Assembly: GCF_008017835.1 (NCBI RefSeq)
Contig: NZ_VRLT01000026.1
Span: 1-64,000, forward strand
From: Mesonia sp. HuA40
GTDB lineage: Bacteria > Bacteroidota > Bacteroidia > Flavobacteriales > Flavobacteriaceae
DNA: 64,000 nt
Direction: 5' to 3'
A program made the translations under genes and the position numbers. The notes beneath the pieces are model-generated. The model searched no databases. It had not been told where the DNA came from and saw only the letters and a program-made list of their open reading frames with translations. This document shows, piece by piece, positions 36,938 through 45,824 of the stretch; the stretch's first letter is position 1; each line of letters begins with the position of its first letter.

Positions 36938-37453
36938 TTACTCTTGCATTAAAACTCCATCAGCCATAAAGGCATACTCTACCTTAGGCTCGGTAATAGC
37001 ATCTATTTCTTCTTGAGATTTCCCGGCATCTTTCGCATAATGTTTTAGCTCTTCGACAGAGGTCTTACTAATAAAAGCTTTCCCCTTTACTACGGTTTCA
37101 CGCTCTTCGCTGTTTAAAGGCACAAAAAAGGCATAGTCTTTAAAGCGAACAAAAGTGGCTTTATCTTCGCCCAGGTCTAAAGACATCCAGCAACCTTTTT
37201 TCTTACATACTTTTTCTACTTCACTTTTAAAGGCAACATTAAGCGTATCTCCTTCGGCCAATTGCTCATATTGAGCTTTCATTTCGGCTCGTGTTAAGAC
37301 GTTAGCATCTCCTATCTCTTCACCAAAGTTCACAAAATTCACTTCAGTTTTTTCAACCACTTCTGGCGTTTCTTGGTTTTCGGTCGGGGCCGGATTATTC
37401 TCTTGCTTACAAGCCATAAAGGCCAACAAAATTAGAAAAGAAAACTTTTTCAT
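36938..37453 (-). CDS. DUF4920 family lipoprotein
   Basis: This 171-aa lipoprotein (lipobox FMAC, C15) has a Glu/Thr/Pro-rich linker and a DUF4920-like domain. Its central segment KVCKKKGCWMSL has two cysteines five apart and reads as an OB-like strand region (about 80-130). Function is unknown. The conserved cysteine pair could bind a metal or be redox-active. It is the first gene of the operon with the haem-motif lipoprotein and mnmD, behind a consensus -7 box. Confidence 0.78.
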   Translation of the reverse strand: MKKFSFLILLAFMACKQENNPAPTENQETPEVVEKTEVNFVNFGEEIGDANVLTRAEMKAQYEQLAEGDTLNVAFKSEVEKVCKKKGCWMSLDLGEDKATFVRFKDYAFFVPLNSEERETVVKGKAFISKTSVEELKHYAKDAGKSQEEIDAITEPKVEYAFMADGVLMQE

Positions 37454-37477
37454 TTTTTTAAATATTTTAGATTAGTC

Positions 37478-37485
37478 AAAATTAA
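37478..37485 (-). promoter_or_regulatory. -7 promoter box of the DUF4920 operon
   Basis: TAATTTTG on the minus strand, 24 nt before the ATG, matches TAnnTTTG. Confidence 0.55.
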
Positions 37486-37519
37486 AAAAAGCAGCGGTAT
37501 AAAAGTTGTTTTATTTTAA

Positions 37520-37527
37520 TACTTTTG
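37520..37527 (+). promoter_or_regulatory. -7 promoter box of ilvE
   Basis: TACTTTTG matches TAnnTTTG and ends 15 nt before the ilvE ATG. It is divergent from the DUF4920 promoter, about 35 nt away. Confidence 0.55.
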
Positions 37528-37542
37528 TGAAAATTTTTTATT

Positions 37543-38616
37543 ATGCACTCCACATCCGATATTTTAGATATACGCCAAGTAGAAAAATCAAAAATTGACC
37601 AAATTGATTTTGACAATATAGCCTTTGGAAAAAACTACGCCGACCATATGATGTTATGCGATTACAAAGATGGCGCCTGGCAAAAACCTAAAATCTTGCC
37701 TTATGGTCCTATGGAGTTTGAGCCCTCTGCTAAAGTTTTTCATTATGGGCAAGCGGTTTTTGAAGGGATGAAGGCCTTTAAAGATGAAAATAATAGGGTT
37801 TGGCTTTTTAGACCAGAAGAAAACTTTAATCGAATTAATATTTCTTCTAAAAGAATGGCTATACCTGAGTTCCCCAAAGACTATTTTTTCGCTGCCTTAG
37901 AAACCTTACTTAAGTTAGATGAAAAATGGGTACACCCAGGAGATGGAAATTCGCTTTATATAAGACCTTTTGTCATTGCTTCTGAAAATGGCGTTTCGGC
38001 TTCACCCTCTAACGAATATAAGTTTATGATTATCTGCTGTCCGGCCAAAGCTTATTACAATTCACCTGTAAAAGTGCTAGTAGCCGATCATTATTCACGT
38101 TCTGCAGATGGTGGTGTAGGTTTCGCTAAAGCAGCGGGTAATTATGGCGCACAGTTTTATCCTACTAATTTAGCTAAAGAAAAAGGTTACCAGCAAATTA
38201 TATGGACTGATTCTAACAGCCATAAATATCTTGAAGAGGCAGGAACCATGAACCTTTTCTTTAGAATAAACGATAAATTAATAACAGCCCCTACAAGCGA
38301 TCGTATTTTAGATGGGGTAACCCGTAAGAGCATTATAGATTTAGCTAGGCATCAAGGTGTTGAAGTAGAGGTAAGAAAAATTACTGTAGAAGAATTGGTA
38401 GGCGCTGCCGAGGATGGTTCATTAAAAGAAATTTTTGGAACAGGAACTGCCGCGACTATTGCTTTTATCGAAGGGTTTGAATATGCGGACAAATACTACG
38501 ATTTACCTAAAATAGAAAATCCATACAGTGTTCGCTTCAAAAAAGGACTTCAAGATATTCAGTACAACCGTGCCGAAGATCCATTTGGATGGCGATACGA
38601 AGTAAAATTAGATTAA
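37543..38616 (+). CDS. ilvE: Branched-chain amino acid aminotransferase
   Basis: This 357-aa PLP-dependent fold-type IV transaminase acts on Leu, Ile and Val. It shows FEPSAKVFHYGQAVFEGMKAF (in two conserved blocks, about residues 58-80), SLYIRPFVIAS, KAAGNYGAQFYPT near the PLP lysine region, YLEEAGTMNLFF and GTGTAATIA. Cytoplasmic. It is monocistronic, between its own -7 box and a terminator. No leader peptide or T-box was seen upstream. Confidence 0.95.
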   Translation: MHSTSDILDIRQVEKSKIDQIDFDNIAFGKNYADHMMLCDYKDGAWQKPKILPYGPMEFEPSAKVFHYGQAVFEGMKAFKDENNRVWLFRPEENFNRINISSKRMAIPEFPKDYFFAALETLLKLDEKWVHPGDGNSLYIRPFVIASENGVSASPSNEYKFMIICCPAKAYYNSPVKVLVADHYSRSADGGVGFAKAAGNYGAQFYPTNLAKEKGYQQIIWTDSNSHKYLEEAGTMNLFFRINDKLITAPTSDRILDGVTRKSIIDLARHQGVEVEVRKITVEELVGAAEDGSLKEIFGTGTAATIAFIEGFEYADKYYDLPKIENPYSVRFKKGLQDIQYNRAEDPFGWRYEVKLD

Positions 38617-38643
38617 TTTTACATTATCATAAAAAAGCCTTAC

Positions 38644-38671
38644 AGCGTTCTTTTTAAAGAGCGCTTTTTTG
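38644..38671 (+). terminator. Terminator of ilvE
   Basis: A 9-bp stem AGCGTTCTT/AAGAGCGCT (38644-38652 with 38657-38665, one G-U pair, loop TTTA) ends in six T residues, 28 nt after the stop. Confidence 0.85.
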
Positions 38672-38715
38672 TTTTCTTTTTTTTCATTAGCCTAAAGCAT
38701 TTGGCTTTTTATACC

Positions 38716-38723
38716 TAATTTTG
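38716..38723 (+). promoter_or_regulatory. -7 promoter box of the MutS-like operon
   Basis: TAATTTTG matches TAnnTTTG. Its last base is the first base of an in-frame GTG; translation therefore more likely starts at the ATG at 38738, 14 nt downstream. This is the only promoter seen for the six genes up to 43473. Confidence 0.6.
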
Positions 38724-38737
38724 TGAAAAACAAAGCT

Positions 38738-38923
38738 ATGTTTACGCAAGGTCAAATTATTTTTACCCTTTTTTTTATTGTGGCTTTCGCCCTTTTATTG
38801 CTTTATAGTTACCGTAAAGATTTAAAATTGCATCAAAAATATTACAAACGCAGTTGGCTCGTCTTGCTAGGTTTTCTGGTTTTTTTAAGCAGTTTATGGT
38901 TAATTAAAAGTTTTTTGTATTGA
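38738..38923 (+). CDS. Small two-helix membrane protein
   Basis: This 61-aa protein has two transmembrane helices (about residues 7-24 and 42-59) joined by a basic loop (YRKDLKLHQKYYKR). It is the first gene of the six-gene operon; its stop overlaps the ATG of the cyclase gene (TGATG). No family was recognised. Tight coupling to the next gene makes it likely real. Confidence 0.65.
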   Translation: MFTQGQIIFTLFFIVAFALLLLYSYRKDLKLHQKYYKRSWLVLLGFLVFLSSLWLIKSFLY

Positions 38924-39669
38924 TGCGTGCAAAAATTAATATTTCTGAAAAAGACTATATGGTTAACTTAAACCAACCTATAGATATTTCATTAACCTTG
39001 TATGGTAATAAACAAAATGTAACCGCTTGGTATAAAGATGTACCAAGCATTAAGCCGGTGCAAGATGGCAACTGGGTGGCTAGCGTAAAACAAGGAGCAT
39101 CGGTGAACTTTAATGATATTAGTTTTAATCCGCATGCGCATGGAACCCATACCGAGTGTGTAGGCCATATTTCTAAAGAATTTTATAGCATTAACGATTG
39201 CCTTACCCAATTCTTTTTTGAGGCTCAGCTTATTAGTTTAACGCCAGAATTGAGCGATGGAGATTGTATTTTTACCGCAGATCAAATCCGTAAAGCATTA
39301 AACGATAATAATCCAGAAGCCATTATAATAAGGACCCTACCCAACACTGAGACCAAGAAAAGTTTTAAATATAGTCACACCAACTGGCCCTATTTAAAAG
39401 AAGAAGCCGCCTTGCTGCTACGTGAATTAAAAGTGATGCATTTATTAATTGACTTGCCTTCTATAGATCGCGAAAAAGATGATGGAAAACTACTGGCTCA
39501 CAAAGCCTTTTGGAATTACCCTGCTAAGCCTCGCCTAGATGCCAGCATTACCGAATTGATTTATGTGCCAAATACTGTAAAAGACGGACAGTATTTATTA
39601 AATTTACAAATAAGCTCGTTTCATAACGACGCTTCCCCCAGTAAACCGATTTTGTATGAACTTTTTTAG
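38923..39669 (+). CDS. Cyclase-family protein (kynurenine formamidase-like)
   Basis: This 248-aa protein has the family metal-binding signature HAHGTHTECVGH (about residues 67-78), with both HxGTHxD/E-type histidines, and a C-terminal DLPSIDREKDDG segment. Known members are metal-dependent hydrolases such as kynurenine formamidase (KynB) and isatin hydrolase. A substrate cannot be assigned, and no tryptophan-degradation gene is nearby. The start ATG overlaps the upstream stop; an in-frame TTG one codon earlier is not needed. Confidence 0.85.
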   Translation: MRAKINISEKDYMVNLNQPIDISLTLYGNKQNVTAWYKDVPSIKPVQDGNWVASVKQGASVNFNDISFNPHAHGTHTECVGHISKEFYSINDCLTQFFFEAQLISLTPELSDGDCIFTADQIRKALNDNNPEAIIIRTLPNTETKKSFKYSHTNWPYLKEEAALLLRELKVMHLLIDLPSIDREKDDGKLLAHKAFWNYPAKPRLDASITELIYVPNTVKDGQYLLNLQISSFHNDASPSKPILYELF

Positions 39670-39681
39670 ATTTTTAGTACA

Positions 39682-40308
39682 ATGGAGCTACTTTTCTTAG
39701 GTTTGGCCGTAGGTGCCGTGGCAGCCTATTTTGTTTACCGATTCACCCACAAAGATCAAGCAAAGCAATCGCAGGATCAACAATCGCTCATTATAATGGA
39801 GAAAATTAGAGCGGTTTGTAAATTTATTACCGTAGAAGGTGATTTTGCCGAAATTTATCATTATAAAAATGTAAAAGACAAGTGGTTAAATATATTTTTA
39901 GGAAGTAAAAAAGCCCTTATCTTAATAGAAGCAAAAGCCCACGTAGGCTTTGATTTAACCAAAATACAAATGCAGGCCAAAACGGCCGAAAAAACCATCG
40001 TGCTCACCAATTTTCCCGAGCCCGAATTGCTCTCTATTGAAACCGATTTTAAGTATTACGATAAACGTGAAGGGTGGGCAAACCCCTTTACATCAACTGA
40101 CTTGACTGATATCAACACTGAAGCCAAACGCTATATTGTAGAAAAAATACCTCAAAGCGGCTTGCTTAACGAAGCTCAAAATCAAGCTTTGGAGACTATA
40201 CAATTAATGGAAAAACTTGTTGAAACCATCAATTGGAAACTCGATTATTCTGCATTAATCCTCGAAAAAAGCCCCACAACTACCAACACCAAAAGAATAG
40301 GTAAATAA
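39682..40308 (+). CDS. DUF4230 family membrane-anchored protein
   Basis: This 208-aa protein has an N-terminal transmembrane helix (about residues 2-21). The rest fits DUF4230: KFITVEGDFAEIYHYK, KKALILIEAKAHVGFDLTKI and VLTNFPEPELLSIETD are visible, and a C-terminal helical part follows. Members are membrane-anchored proteins of unknown function. It lies 12 nt after the cyclase gene and 3 nt before the YjbR gene. Confidence 0.82.
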   Translation: MELLFLGLAVGAVAAYFVYRFTHKDQAKQSQDQQSLIIMEKIRAVCKFITVEGDFAEIYHYKNVKDKWLNIFLGSKKALILIEAKAHVGFDLTKIQMQAKTAEKTIVLTNFPEPELLSIETDFKYYDKREGWANPFTSTDLTDINTEAKRYIVEKIPQSGLLNEAQNQALETIQLMEKLVETINWKLDYSALILEKSPTTTNTKRIGK

Positions 40309-40311
40309 CTT

Positions 40312-40683
40312 ATGGAGATTGATGAAATTCGGCAATATTGCCTTAACAAGCCAGGCACAACAGAGGATTTTCCTTTTGATCAGCATACCTTAGTTTTTAA
40401 AGTTATGGGTAAGATGTATGCTCTGATAGGACTAGAAAAATGGGAAGCAGGAAGCCCTACCATTAACTTGAAATGTGACCCAGAAAAAGCCATCGAATTG
40501 AGAGAACGCTACCCCGATGAAATTTATGGTGGTTATCATATGAGTAAAAAACATTGGAATACGGTTGTTATTAACGGACCGCATTTAACACCAAAACAGA
40601 TAATACATTTTATCAACCACAGTTATGAACTGGTAGTTAGCAAATTAACTAAAAAGCAAAAAGAAGAGTTGAATAAACTTTAA
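40312..40683 (+). CDS. MmcQ/YjbR family protein
   Basis: This 123-aa soluble protein shows the YjbR fold markers: N-terminal CLNKPGTTEDFPFDQ, then VFKVMGKMYALIG, LKCDPEKAIELRERYP, GYHMSKKHWNTV and a C-terminal helix. YjbR-type proteins have a CyaY-like fold proposed to bind DNA; the function is not established. It sits immediately before the membrane MutS-family gene in the same operon. Confidence 0.9.
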   Translation: MEIDEIRQYCLNKPGTTEDFPFDQHTLVFKVMGKMYALIGLEKWEAGSPTINLKCDPEKAIELRERYPDEIYGGYHMSKKHWNTVVINGPHLTPKQIIHFINHSYELVVSKLTKKQKEELNKL

Positions 40684-40702
40684 CCTCCTAATCTTATTTT
40701 TA

Positions 40703-42475
40703 ATGCAAGACCCCAAAACTACGTATAGCGCCTATATAGAAGAATTTCAGCTTGAGCTAAGAAAACTAAAGCAACAACTCTTTGCTTCAAGCATGTTGAG
40801 ATTGGCTGTTTTCTTATTTTTTGGCTTTTTAACTTACTTTTACTCCGATTCAACTTCGCTTGTATTTCTTTTTATTTTTTTAGGAATTGTTTCTTTCTTA
40901 TTTCTGGTATCTAGGCACAGTGATCTTCAACAACAAAAAGAAAAATTGCGACAGCTTATTGAACTTAATGAAACTGAACTAAAAGTTTTAAATCGGGATT
41001 TTCACCATTTACCAGATGGAGAAGAATTTATTGATGCCCAACACGAATTTAGTCAAGATATCGATTTATTTGGTAATCGAACGTTTTTTCAATACCTCAA
41101 CCGTACCGCCTTAGCTTCGGGAAAAAGAACCTTAGCCCATTTACTAAGCAGCAACAATATTGACCAGATTGAGCAAAAACAAGACAGTATTAGAGATCTT
41201 GCAAAAAAAATTAAGTTTAGACAAGAATTCACGGCGATTGCTAAAATGACTCAAGTAAAAATAAAACCGCCTATTGTTTTAGACTGGTTTAAAAATTACA
41301 AGCCTTTTGTACCCTCTGTTTATAAATGGCTGCCTAAGGTTTTTACAGCTGTCTCATTTTTGTTATTTTTTAGCCTAGCTTTAGATTTAATTCCTTGGTT
41401 TTATGTGGCAGGCTGGTTTATTTTGGGTTGGATTATAATTGGGAGGTATGCGAAAAAAATAAACGAGTTGTCGGGTTATGTGAGCGAAATTCAAAGCACA
41501 TTTCAACAATATCATTTATTGCTGGCTTTAATTGAGGACAGTGATTTTCAATCGGAATGGAACAAGAATCAGCAAAACAAAATTCAAATCAATCAAAAGA
41601 AAGCATCCACTTTAGTCAGGGATTTTTCTAAAACTATAGATGCTATAGAGCGAAAGAACTTTATGATCTTTGGGCAGTTAATCAGTGGTTTTATGCTTTG
41701 GGATTTATGGAAAGCTTATGAAATAGAACAATGGATCAAGCAATATGCTCCAAGCACCGAAAATTGGTTTACAGCGATTGATTATTTTGACGCTTACAAC
41801 TCCTTAGGTGGTTTTGCTTTTAATCACCAAAGCTACACCTATCCTAAAATAACGCAAAACGAAGTAGTATTAAAATCAACCGAGGCTGTGCATCCATTAA
41901 TCAACCCAAAAGATGCAGTGAAAAATGATTATAAAATCAATCAACAAGAGTTTTTCATTATAACTGGGGCCAATATGGCAGGAAAAAGTACTTTTTTACG
42001 GAGCATTTCGCTACAAATAGTTATGGGTAATGTAGGACTTCCTGTTTGCGCTAAAACTTGCGAATACTCTCCAATAAAACTAATCACAAGTATGCGTACA
42101 GTAGATTCTCTAGCCGACGATGCCTCCTATTTCTTTTCGGAATTAACCCGGTTAAAATTTATTGTAGATCAAATTAAAAATGATAAGTATTTTATTATTC
42201 TTGATGAGATTTTAAAAGGCACCAACAGCACCGATAAAGCCATTGGTTCGCGAAAATTTGTTGAGAAACTAGTAAACTCACATTCCACGGGAATTATTGC
42301 GACCCACGATTTAAGTTTATGTGAAGTTGCCCATAGCTTACCACAAGTAGAAAACTATTATTTTGATGCTCAAATTATTAACGAAGAGCTTCATTTTGAT
42401 TATAAATTTAAAAAGGGTATTTGCCAAAATATGAACGCCTCTTTTTTACTTAAAAAAATGGAAATTGTAGATTAA
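40703..42475 (+). CDS. Membrane-embedded MutS-family ATPase
   Basis: This 590-aa protein has two predicted helix pairs in its N-terminal half (about residues 29-70 and 210-250), a short third hydrophobic stretch (about 318-335) and a MutS domain V ATPase at the C-terminus. The ATPase shows Walker A GANMAGKS (422-429), DDASYFFSEL, Walker B FIILDEILKGTNS and the switch ATHDLSLCE. The mismatch-recognition domain (with its Phe-x-Glu) and connector domain are missing. It is not a normal mismatch-repair MutS or MutS2. It may act at the membrane on an unknown substrate. It overlaps the next gene by 1 nt. Confidence 0.88.
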   Translation: MQDPKTTYSAYIEEFQLELRKLKQQLFASSMLRLAVFLFFGFLTYFYSDSTSLVFLFIFLGIVSFLFLVSRHSDLQQQKEKLRQLIELNETELKVLNRDFHHLPDGEEFIDAQHEFSQDIDLFGNRTFFQYLNRTALASGKRTLAHLLSSNNIDQIEQKQDSIRDLAKKIKFRQEFTAIAKMTQVKIKPPIVLDWFKNYKPFVPSVYKWLPKVFTAVSFLLFFSLALDLIPWFYVAGWFILGWIIIGRYAKKINELSGYVSEIQSTFQQYHLLLALIEDSDFQSEWNKNQQNKIQINQKKASTLVRDFSKTIDAIERKNFMIFGQLISGFMLWDLWKAYEIEQWIKQYAPSTENWFTAIDYFDAYNSLGGFAFNHQSYTYPKITQNEVVLKSTEAVHPLINPKDAVKNDYKINQQEFFIITGANMAGKSTFLRSISLQIVMGNVGLPVCAKTCEYSPIKLITSMRTVDSLADDASYFFSELTRLKFIVDQIKNDKYFIILDEILKGTNSTDKAIGSRKFVEKLVNSHSTGIIATHDLSLCEVAHSLPQVENYYFDAQIINEELHFDYKFKKGICQNMNASFLLKKMEIVD

Positions 42476-43473
42476 TGGATTCACTTACACAAATTGTATT
42501 GGGCGCTGCTGTAGGCGAAGTAGTTTTAGGTAAAAAAGTAGGTAATAAAGCCATGCTATATGGGGCTATTGCTGGCACAATACCCGACTTAGATACCTTT
42601 GCCTCGCATTTTGTAACTACCGTTGATGCTTTAGCTATTCATCGTGGTTTTACACATTCTATTTTTTTTGCGGTTTTATTTGCTCCTATTATGGGGTGGT
42701 TCATTTCACGTTTTGAAAAAGCTGCCAATTTTAAAGACTGGTCTTGGTTATTCTTTTGGGGTTTTTTAACGCACCCCCTCCTTGATGCTCATACTACTTG
42801 GGGTACGCAACTTTTTTGGCCATTAGACCTACGCTTAGCTTATAAGAATATATTTGTGATAGATCCGCTTTATACGCTACCTTTTTTGATTTGTGTTCTA
42901 GCAGCTATGCGTTTACCTAAAAAATCCGCTCGACGTAAAAACTTAAATAAATGGGGATTAATTCTGAGTACCACTTATTTAGGTGTAACTTTACTACTTA
43001 AGTTTTACACCTACCAGCAATTTAAAAGTGCGTTAAACCATCAAGAGATTTCGTACACAACTATTGAAACTAAACCAACGGCTTTTAATAGTTTATTATG
43101 GACGGCCAATGTAGATACAGAAAATCATTACTTAATAGGTCACTACTCTATTTTTGACACTCAGCCCATACATTTTTCAAAGTATCCCAAAAACCATTTG
43201 TTGCTTGACCCTCTGAGGCAAGAGCCACAAGTGCAAAAACTCATTAAAATTACAGAAGGTTGGTACAATATAGAGCAAAAAGAAGATTATATTATTTTAA
43301 ATGATTTGCGTTTTGGATTACTTAGCTTATCTCCTCAAGCTAAGAATTTTGTGTTTAGCTATACTATCAAAAAAGATAAAGATGGGGCTATTTCTATCGA
43401 AGAAAGAGAGAAGCATATGCGCGATGGCAAAAAATTAATACAAGAATTAATTTGCAGAATACAAGGGAATTAA
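42475..43473 (+). CDS. Membrane-bound metal-dependent hydrolase (YdjM/DUF457-like)
   Basis: This 332-aa protein has an N-terminal integral membrane region with metal-binding motifs: IPDLDTF, HRGFTHS and HPLLDAHTTWG. A C-terminal extracytoplasmic part follows from about residue 195. The family is known as LexA-regulated or YdjM-type membrane hydrolases, without a firm substrate. Its ATG overlaps the MutS-like stop (TAATG), so it is co-translated. The stop shares a TTAA with the convergent gene. Confidence 0.88.
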   Translation: MDSLTQIVLGAAVGEVVLGKKVGNKAMLYGAIAGTIPDLDTFASHFVTTVDALAIHRGFTHSIFFAVLFAPIMGWFISRFEKAANFKDWSWLFFWGFLTHPLLDAHTTWGTQLFWPLDLRLAYKNIFVIDPLYTLPFLICVLAAMRLPKKSARRKNLNKWGLILSTTYLGVTLLLKFYTYQQFKSALNHQEISYTTIETKPTAFNSLLWTANVDTENHYLIGHYSIFDTQPIHFSKYPKNHLLLDPLRQEPQVQKLIKITEGWYNIEQKEDYIILNDLRFGLLSLSPQAKNFVFSYTIKKDKDGAISIEEREKHMRDGKKLIQELICRIQGN

Positions 43474-44237
43474 TCTTTTGTAAAGAGATTAACCTGTTGT
43501 TTGATTTGGCTATCATTGGGTACAGGATTAGTATAAAACTTCACAAAATCTTGAATGGAGTAGTGTTTTAACGTATCATTTTTAACCTGGTTGTTGTTTA
43601 AAAAAATACGGTATTGTGTATCATAAGTAAAAAGATCGAGTCGTTGTGCACTCAAAGTTTGTTTTTGGGTTAAAGCTTCTACGAAAGGCAAAAAATCTGG
43701 AAGTTTTTCGGCCTTGATTCGTTGCTCAAAAGTCATATTTTGATAAATGTATTCTACCTGTTCTAAATCTTCGGCTTTTAAAATGCGGTCTTCTACTTTA
43801 CTTTGTTTCCAGTTTTTAACAAGACTGTCATACAGTGCTAGCTGTGCCTCTCCTATTTTAGTTTTTTCTTGATTGATTTCTGTTCGTTGTTGAACGTTTA
43901 GAATTCTAATTTGGGTTTTTTTCAGGGATTGCTTAACAAATTGAATAATCTCTGGGTCTGAACTTTCGCTTATAATTAAGGTGGCAGAATCTCTAAACAA
44001 ACTTTCTTCTTCTAGACTATCAACTATAGCATTAATCACCTTTACCAAATTTTCTGGCTGTACCACTTCTTGATTAACAATAATCTTTTTTTCTCCTTCT
44101 ATACGAATAATAACCTTGTTGATCTCCTGCAACTGAAACGGTACATTAGAATATAAAACCTCGGTATTACTACTAAATAGAGGATTAAAAAAGCACAAGG
44201 CTAAAAAACTAAAAAGAATATGATAAAATTTGCGCAT
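43470..44237 (-). CDS. Secreted ExbD-like/hypothetical protein
   Basis: This 255-aa protein has an N-terminal signal sequence (about residues 1-22) and a periplasmic region. INKVIIRIEGEKKIIVNQEVVQPENLVKVINAI resembles (read in two blocks) the ExbD/TolR periplasmic fold, where the strand-Glu-Asn-loop repeats, and STLIISES follows. It lacks the ExbD transmembrane Asp. A helix-rich tail with QxxxD segments follows. Function is unknown. The ATG at 44237 lies 17 nt after a -7 box, while a longer TTG start is 2 nt from it. Confidence 0.6.
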   Translation of the reverse strand: MRKFYHILFSFLALCFFNPLFSSNTEVLYSNVPFQLQEINKVIIRIEGEKKIIVNQEVVQPENLVKVINAIVDSLEEESLFRDSATLIISESSDPEIIQFVKQSLKKTQIRILNVQQRTEINQEKTKIGEAQLALYDSLVKNWKQSKVEDRILKAEDLEQVEYIYQNMTFEQRIKAEKLPDFLPFVEALTQKQTLSAQRLDLFTYDTQYRIFLNNNQVKNDTLKHYSIQDFVKFYTNPVPNDSQIKQQVNLFTKD

Positions 44238-44254
44238 AACATTAGATAACAAAG

Positions 44255-44262
44255 CAAAGTTA
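44255..44262 (-). promoter_or_regulatory. -7 promoter box of the ExbD-like gene
   Basis: TAACTTTG on the minus strand matches TAnnTTTG and ends 17 nt before the ATG at 44237. Confidence 0.5.
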
Positions 44263-44356
44263 ATTTATAATTTACAAATTAACGCTTTAAAAAAAATAGA
44301 ATATTGATTTATATCAGTCTTTGAAAAATAAAAACAATTCTGCATTTATAATAATG

Positions 44357-44364
44357 TATTTTTG
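44357..44364 (+). promoter_or_regulatory. -7 promoter box of phnA
   Basis: TATTTTTG matches TAnnTTTG and ends 21 nt before the ATG at 44386. A longer in-frame start at 44362 lies inside the box and is unlikely. Confidence 0.6.
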
Positions 44365-44385
44365 CAGCATTCAAAAAACAGAATT

Positions 44386-44967
44386 ATGAGCTTAGATCAA
44401 GATTTAATGCAGCGTGCTTCTTCTAGTTGTGAACTTTGCGGAAGTAAGGAGAATTTAGAAATATATAATTTACCCCCTCAAAACGCAGCAAGTATAGAGA
44501 ATAGTATTTTATGCTGCGAGACTTGCCACCTGCAAATTACTGGAGAGCAAGAATTAGACCCCAACCATTGGCGTTGCCTCAATGATAGTATGTGGAGCAC
44601 AGATAAACCAGTTCAAGTTGTAGTATGGCGATTGTTAAATGCTTTAAAAAATGAAGGTTGGCCACAGGATTTGCTTGATATGATGTATATAGAAGATGAG
44701 GTTTTGGAGTATGCTAAACAAGGGGTGAATAAAACAGAAGAAACAACTACAGGATTGGTACACCGAGACAGCAATGGGGTGCAAATTGAATCTGGAGATA
44801 ACGTTGTACTTATTAAAGATTTACCGGTAAAGGGTTCAAGTATGGTAGCGAAAAGAGGTACTGCTGTTAGGCGTGTTTCTCTCGTGCATGACAATGAAGA
44901 ACAAATAGAGGGAAAAGTAGATGGCCAGCAAATTGTGATTCTTACCAAATTTGTAAAGAAAATGTAA
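44386..44967 (+). CDS. PhnA domain zinc-ribbon protein
   Basis: This 193-aa protein has an N-terminal zinc ribbon (CELCGS and CCETCH, two CxxC pairs about 27 residues apart) and a C-terminal PhnA domain (GDNVVLIKDLPVKGSSMVAKRGT, split here by strands). The family is named for an E. coli protein now known not to act in phosphonate breakdown (alkylphosphonate utilisation operon protein PhnA), and its role remains uncertain. It is monocistronic with its own promoter and a very strong terminator. Confidence 0.88.
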   Translation: MSLDQDLMQRASSSCELCGSKENLEIYNLPPQNAASIENSILCCETCHLQITGEQELDPNHWRCLNDSMWSTDKPVQVVVWRLLNALKNEGWPQDLLDMMYIEDEVLEYAKQGVNKTEETTTGLVHRDSNGVQIESGDNVVLIKDLPVKGSSMVAKRGTAVRRVSLVHDNEEQIEGKVDGQQIVILTKFVKKM

Positions 44968-45004
44968 TAAAAAAAGCTTGGTAAATTTACCAAGCTTTTT
45001 TTTT
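44968..45004. terminator. Bidirectional terminator, phnA / pseudouridine synthase
   Basis: A perfect palindrome (17 bp each side of 44985/44986), AAGCTTGGTAAA with its complement, is flanked by A and T runs. The stop codon of the convergent pseudouridine synthase (45005-45003) overlaps its T-run. Confidence 0.9.
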
Positions 45005-45824
45005 AAATCATCCCGAGGTTAATGACTTCTTGTTTGTTCAAATGTCGATAATGGCCTCTGGGCAAATCTTTTTTCGTAAGTCCGCCAAATACTACACGAT
45101 CTAGCCGAACCACCTCATAATTTAGCTTTTTAAACATACGCTGTACAATATGTGGTTTTGTACTATGTATTTCGAGACCAACATTACGTTTACTTTGGTT
45201 TTCAACATAGCTGATGGCATTAACATGTACCTTACCATCTTCTAAAACTATTCCTTCTTCTATTTTCTTCAGATCAGATAAATCGAGGTTACGATTCAGT
45301 TCTACATCGTAGATTTGCCTTATCCCCTTTTTGGGATTAGCTAAATTCATAGCTAATGTTCCGTCGTTGGTAAATAGCAATAATCCCATAGCACTGGTTT
45401 CTAATTTACCCACAGGACTCAGTTTAGATTTTGATGCGTTAGCCACCAAATCCATTACTGTTCGATTACTTCTTTCTAAGCTACCAGTAACATAAAATCC
45501 GCTAGGTTTATTAAGCAATACATATTCTTTTCTTTCTGGAGTTATTCTACGACCGTCAAATCTTACCTCATCATCGGGTTGCACCTTATAACCCATTTCG
45601 GTAACCACCTCTCCATTTACCCGAACATTTCCTGCCTTAATATAAATATCTGCGTCTCTACGGCTACAAATACCGGAGTTAGCTATATATTTATTCAAAC
45701 GCATTTTAGCATCTGGATTTTTAACCTGTTTGTCTACAGCTACCTTCTTAGCTGCTGGCTTCTTATGAGGTTTAGGCACAACATACTCTTTCTTCGTTTT
45801 CTTTTTGCCTTGTCTTTTAGTCAT
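45003..45824 (-). CDS. RsuA/RluB-type pseudouridine synthase, altered catalytic motif
   Basis: This 273-aa protein has a basic N-terminal tail (1-40), an S4 RNA-binding domain (41-90; MRLNKYIANSGICSRR, VRVNGEVV) and a pseudouridine-synthase fold. The VLLNKPSGF motif at 102-110 is present. Where RsuA/RluB enzymes have G-R-L-D, with the catalytic Asp, it reads GKLE (139-142; codon 45399-45401), followed by TSAMGLLLFTNDG. The family normally isomerises uridine in 16S or 23S rRNA; with Glu in place of Asp activity is uncertain. The ATG at 45824 follows a -7 box, which overlaps a longer TTG start. Confidence 0.85.
   Translation of the reverse strand: MTKRQGKKKTKKEYVVPKPHKKPAAKKVAVDKQVKNPDAKMRLNKYIANSGICSRRDADIYIKAGNVRVNGEVVTEMGYKVQPDDEVRFDGRRITPERKEYVLLNKPSGFYVTGSLERSNRTVMDLVANASKSKLSPVGKLETSAMGLLLFTNDGTLAMNLANPKKGIRQIYDVELNRNLDLSDLKKIEEGIVLEDGKVHVNAISYVENQSKRNVGLEIHSTKPHIVQRMFKKLNYEVVRLDRVVFGGLTKKDLPRGHYRHLNKQEVINLGMI

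Follow-up and report, generated by a model that had tools for sequence, protein, structure and literature searches.

A MutS-family ATPase with predicted membrane hairpins in a loosely linked gene string of Mesonia sp. HuA40

Six closely packed genes at positions 38716-43473 of a 64,000-nucleotide (nt) stretch of Mesonia sp. HuA40 DNA (contig NZ_VRLT01000026.1, positions 1 to 64,000; the whole analysed stretch is called the window here) raise the question of whether they work as one system or only lie together, and of what the MutS-family ATPase among them does. The genes encode, in order, a 61-amino-acid (aa) membrane protein, a putative cyclase, a DUF4230 protein, a YjbR-fold protein, the ATPase, called MutS-TM for its predicted transmembrane (TM) segments, and a YdjM-family hydrolase. 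A previous reading, made from the sequence alone, had described a six-gene operon forming an undescribed system, conceivably a genome-integrity, DNA-uptake or defence module. Our analysis showed that the clade of membrane MutS proteins is real, and the six-gene system was not supported. We give about an even chance to the explanation that we favour, a locally inherited gene string in which MutS-TM is a MutS-family membrane ATPase working as a lever on an inner-membrane partner.

The architecture of MutS-TM was determined from Pfam profiles, hydropathy and an AlphaFold model, and comprised the following features:
40703-42475, + strand: MutS-TM, 590 aa, a MutS-family ATPase with four predicted TM segments (PF00488, E = 1.4e-28; AlphaFold model; nearest solved fold MutS)
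40778-40909, + strand: hairpin 1 (TM1-TM2), residues 26-69 (seen as hydropathy peaks in almost every one of 80 homologues; the flanks follow the positive-inside rule)
41078-41242, + strand: core helices, domain III-like, residues 126-180 (PF05192 scores weakly here and matches 44 of 75 homologues)
41330-41443, + strand: hairpin 2 (TM3-TM4), residues 210-247, inside the core/lever region (hydropathy, AlphaFold model)
41957-42430, + strand: MutS domain V ATPase (Walker A GANMAGKST, Walker B LDEILKGTN, ATHD)

The N-terminal TM helices described in the sequence-only reading correspond to the first hairpin (residues 26-44 and 51-69), and that reading had overlooked the second, internal hairpin (residues ~210-226 and 232-247, with the final boundary taken from the model). 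The same two-hairpin hydropathy pattern recurred across the set of 80 homologues; single sequences had some of the peaks under the cut-off, as the window protein did for TM4. The cytosolic flanks contained on average 2.2-4.2 lysine and arginine residues versus 0.1-0.3 in the short outer loops, a charge pattern that predicts both protein ends and the ATPase inside and almost nothing outside. In the single-chain AlphaFold model (predicted local distance difference test score, pLDDT, 90), residues 1-96 form two long helices containing TM1 and TM2, and the best PDB folds were MutS entries (7oto, E = 4.8e-18, TMq 0.55). Hairpin 2, as read from the order of secondary structure and from profile alignments, sits between the core helices and the lever. 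The model contained no strand of three or more residues before residue 388, so the beta-rich MutS clamp is missing, and no match to MutS_IV (clamp domain IV) was listed for the homologues; the exact site of the lost clamp is one that we infer.

Pfam recognised domain V and, weakly, domain III in MutS-TM, and gave no match to domain I (mismatch) or II (connector) in any of the 75 homologues, bearing out the earlier statement that these two domains are lacking. Domain V (PF00488) was present in 75/75 homologues, and Walker A residues T421, G422, N424, M425, G427, K428 and T430, the Walker B pair D501-E502, H535 and the D468/S475/F477/E480 motif were invariant in all of them. Taken as a set, the catalytic residues were invariant or nearly so, a conservation from which ATPase activity would be expected. 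One homologue (G450:C1:529325-531085) contains one in-frame TAG codon, which may be due to a sequencing error or mark a recent pseudogene.

MutS-TM gave matches at E ≤ 1e-20 in 128 of the 395 genomes sampled across the phylum, some of them accounted for by shorter relatives, and each of the 15 other genomes searched from the same genus has MutS-TM. Profile comparison and a tree built from the ATPase region placed these proteins in a non-mismatch clade (support 100/98) apart from MutS1 and MutS2. Within it, proteins of 590 aa, of 550 aa (from Bacteroidota) and from Firmicutes make up the membrane types, which form one clade (97/95). Soluble 440-aa proteins, which have no internal TM hairpin, are the sister group of the membrane types. 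In the Firmicutes type, a single N-terminal TM helix is combined with an internal hairpin sited as in MutS-TM, and the 550-aa type shows the same layout except for one member whose N-terminal helix was unscored; the internal hairpin is retained in relatives from Staphylococcus, Ruminococcus and other Bacteroidota. The S. aureus relative (L242, 3215-4825), with three TM helices, lies between tsaD and an ABC-F gene. Four soluble short proteins (L234-L237, 438-448 aa) from several Bacteroidota consist of core and domain V only and are apparently uncharacterised. A mobile element was rejected as the carrier of MutS-TM, since homologues at ≥80% coverage appeared in 5 of 72,556 PLSDB records, of which at least one is a replicon the size of a chromosome, and no phage record contained one; the 256-kb 'plasmid' NZ_CP077935.1, which holds the S. 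aureus relative, looks like a piece of chromosome because rex, tsaBDE and ilvD are also there. MutS-TM behaves like a gene of the chromosome, passed on mostly by vertical descent.

MutS-TM was then compared with known MutS proteins. It shares the domain V ATPase motifs and core fold with MutS1, but differs from it in having two TM hairpins, no mismatch, connector or beta-rich clamp domain, and a separate clade. The host genome (a 2.64-Mb draft) encodes its own 871-aa MutS1, and MutS-TM scored below the NCBIfam MutS cut-offs (131 versus 480 bits and 103 versus 642 bits). MutS2 resembles MutS-TM in combining core and domain V without domains I and II. MutS2 bears a clamp and C-terminal KOW/SMR domains (PMC10897456), whereas the MutS-TM chain stops after domain V; MutS2 is also not a membrane protein and stands in a separate clade. 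The host genome has a MutS2-type gene as well, and MutS-TM reached 85 bits against the NCBIfam MutS2 cut-off of 400. The Staphylococcus/Ruminococcus 'MutS family DNA mismatch repair protein' (WP_000106330.1, 536 aa) has the same core and ATPase, the internal hairpin (hhalign 100%) and the same clade, but a single N-terminal TM helix instead of a hairpin, and other neighbours. KamC, the lysine 5,6-aminomutase reactivase ATPase (NF052383), is MutS-related, has a non-DNA role by its model name and aligns with residues 341-535; MutS-TM is not a KamC member because it scored 88 bits against a cut-off of 300. Further MutS subfamilies were reportedly described by Ogata et al. in 2011, where a name for this type is possible, and the papers that our search covered gave no description of this clade, of a membrane MutS or of a MutS domain V with TM segments.

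The linkage of MutS-TM to its neighbours was assessed in 120 Flavobacteriaceae genomes, almost one per genus. MutS-TM occurred in 83 genomes, YjbR in 99 and both in 76; seven genomes held MutS-TM without YjbR (five of them <90% complete), 23 held YjbR without MutS-TM and 14 held neither. The two genes were adjacent in 31 of the 76 genomes with both. Additionally, 36 Flavobacteriaceae genomes were compared, with MutS-TM beside YjbR in 12, elsewhere in 12 and lacking in 12; these groups were picked by YjbR-MutS-TM adjacency, not by the cyclase-DUF4230-YjbR trio. YjbR and the cyclase were at most 3 kb apart in 12, 11 and 11 of 12 genomes, respectively (the twelfth of the last group has no cyclase), and YjbR and DUF4230 in 11, 8 and 8. 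YdjM lay within 3 kb of MutS-TM in 9, 0 and 0, and was frequently elsewhere or missing. The linkage is therefore loose, and the six-gene operon does not hold as a fixed system: YjbR stays next to MutS-TM in a part of the genomes, and YdjM is near it only where MutS-TM adjoins YjbR. A tight operon across the family was ruled out by the counts from both samples.

The cyclase, DUF4230 and YjbR genes, in the order seen here, belong to a Flavobacteriaceae string (HemW-cyclase-DUF4260-DUF4230-YjbR) that occurs with or without MutS-TM and YdjM. The block was intact in part of Mesonia and partial in Salegentibacter, Salinimicrobium, Maribacter, Euzebyella, Leeuwenhoekiella and Aquimarina; many relatives had the string genes split by inserts or placed elsewhere. 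Genes inserted in or preceding these blocks are often what we take to be DUF4260, pirin or HemW, names that we read from the sequences and not from a database match. The linked state required 3 changes on the 44-row MutS-TM tree versus 14.6 after shuffling, so the linkage looks like one inherited arrangement with few gains and losses and not like repeated assembly. In the remaining loci, which range from Winogradskyella, Tenacibaculum and Flavobacterium to Bacteroides, unrelated genes surrounded MutS-TM. The nearest neighbours (109 in all) of MutS-TM genes lying outside the string, unrelated housekeeping genes, fell into 144 Pfam families, the commonest (ferredoxin-type) with 5 members; the neighbourhood was random outside Flavobacteriaceae and in most of the sampled Flavobacteriaceae, an outcome that the sequence-only reading had itself counted against its proposal. 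No linked six-gene block was found in ~41 loci of other families with profiles built from close relatives, which remote homologues could escape. One contig labelled Parvularcula (Pseudomonadota; L217, PAIP01000040.1) carries a Flavobacteriaceae cyclase-DUF4260-DUF4230-YjbR-MutS-TM string and is probably mis-binned, or else reflects transfer.

These distributions are consistent with a family-wide string (HemW, cyclase, DUF4260, DUF4230, YjbR) that MutS-TM and YdjM would have joined in part of Flavobacteriaceae as independent additions, and that would have been compacted here behind one promoter. MutS and MutS2 form dimers through their domain V heads, and ATP powers the motion of their arms. 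MutS-TM most likely dimerises in the same way through its heads of the ATP-binding cassette (ABC) type; ATP binding and hydrolysis would then shift the lever helices and thereby the membrane hairpins, and the moving hairpins may remodel a partner in or at the inner membrane. The DNA-contacting ends are lost and the arms contain membrane hairpins, from which it would follow most simply that the MutS stroke is passed to a membrane partner. The exchange of the DNA-reading parts for two membrane hairpins suggests a role other than mismatch repair, in agreement with the earlier view that such a role is unlikely. We consider it possible, at somewhat below even chances, that throughout this Bacteroidota/Bacillota clade, Staphylococcus included, the MutS clamp machine has become a mechanical membrane ATPase with an undescribed non-DNA function.

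Several points weigh against a mere string around a membrane lever. The TM segments are predictions from hydropathy and from a model of one chain. The gene order kept in 31/76 genomes, almost all of different genera, exceeds chance, so some functional coupling of MutS-TM and YjbR is possible; the presence of the two genes is also mildly associated (Fisher p = 0.0004, uncorrected for phylogeny or genome size).

The adjacency in 31 of 76 genomes, together with the MutS ancestry, also speaks for MutS-TM as a membrane-anchored DNA handler (tethering the chromosome, or taking part in DNA uptake or in the control of recombination), to which YjbR would be the DNA-binding partner, and DNA binding by MmcQ/YjbR proteins has been predicted from similarity to MotCF (PMC7641849). 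We regard this as unlikely, since MutS domains I and IV, which contact DNA, are absent, each gene is found in genomes without the other, and the recurrent neighbours of MutS-TM include no uptake gene. The Pfam scan of the homologues gave no ABC transporter TM family. A transporter-like ABC protein for a lipid or small molecule would fit four TM helices per chain, eight per dimer, under an ABC-type head, but related chains carry only three TM helices and the fold is that of MutS, not of an ABC transporter; we find this explanation rather improbable. Still less probable is a membrane-bound counterpart of MutS2 acting on ribosomes, for example those stalled at the translocon. MutS2, itself without domains I and II, splits collided ribosomes by its ATPase, for which Walker A and B are needed (PMC10897456), and the MutS-TM core and ATPase are alike; MutS-TM, however, has no KOW and SMR domains of the kind that recruit MutS2, falls outside MutS2 in the tree, and coexists with the host's own MutS2-type gene. 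A functional defence or genome-integrity module of all six genes is very improbable, because its members separate freely and MutS-TM behaves as a chromosomal gene with mostly vertical inheritance, despite the single conserved promoter and overlapping genes here and a block that Mesonia retains and several other genera retain in part. MutS-TM matched PADLOC models solely through weak similarity of the kind that ATPases share in general, and no more than 3 of the 109 neighbours hit any model; a defence system was ruled out by these scans, and the proposed defence association found no support.

For a MutS-family membrane ATPase, the database name 'DNA mismatch repair protein MutS' is probably wrong across the whole membrane clade. 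MutS2 is the precedent for a MutS ATPase serving translation, and a membrane-embedded MutS branch in many Bacteroidota and in Staphylococcus would add one more role for such ATPases.

Within the window, all six open reading frames were confirmed at 38716-43473 with near-zero gaps (-1 (TGATG), 12, 3, 19 and -1 (TAATG) nt in order), and Pfam upheld the earlier product assignments. The remaining features of the string were as follows:
38644-38665, + strand: terminator-like hairpin after ilvE, a 9-pair stem followed by a T-rich tail, dividing ilvE from the string
38716-38723, + strand: -7 box TAATTTTG of the Bacteroidota promoter type, upstream of the 61-aa gene and kept in relatives
38738-38923, + strand: 61-aa membrane protein with two TM segments (hydropathy; conserved linker SYRKDxKLHKKYYKGS)
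38923-39669, + strand: putative cyclase/formamidase-like metal hydrolase (PF04199, E = 2.8e-16; HxxGTHxE metal-type motif, read from the sequence)
39682-40308, + strand: DUF4230 protein with an N-terminal membrane helix (PF14014, E = 4e-25)
40312-40683, + strand: YjbR/MmcQ-fold protein (PF04237, E = 5e-31; solved relatives 2a1v and 2fki)
42475-43473, + strand: YdjM-family membrane metal hydrolase (PF04307, E = 7.6e-36)

Boxes of the form TAnnTTTG occurred at chance level in the whole window (108 versus 97.7 expected), and, of 43 chosen genes, 15 had one in the 60 nt before the gene, versus ~2 expected. The box before the 61-aa gene was kept in 13/13 loci with that gene (one reads TAAATTTG), so the -7 box reported earlier is real and promoter-like in placement. 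The gaps and this conserved box are consistent with the six genes here being, probably, one transcript. In several relatives (L071, L072, L078, L079, L084, L085), a separate TATTTTTG box immediately precedes MutS-TM, which is therefore often a unit by itself. No Rfam RNA matched within window positions 37000-45500.

The 61-aa protein starts at the ATG at 38738, a start shared by 12 homologues (MFxQGQ); an alternative GTG at 38723 falls inside the -7 box. The protein matched no Pfam family, the sequence search for the cyclase gave no solved relative, and the fold search with the DUF4230 model (pLDDT 76, middling) had no match at E ≤ 0.001. Hydropathy predicted TM segments in 4/6 products, as had been proposed. 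On the minus strand at 43473-44252, a 260-aa protein with a signal-like N-terminus and no Pfam or NCBIfam match adjoins YdjM in several relatives as well. At 44362-44967, a YjdM/PhnA protein carries an extra N-terminal CxxC zinc-finger part with a faint likeness to part of IscB (E = 0.008).

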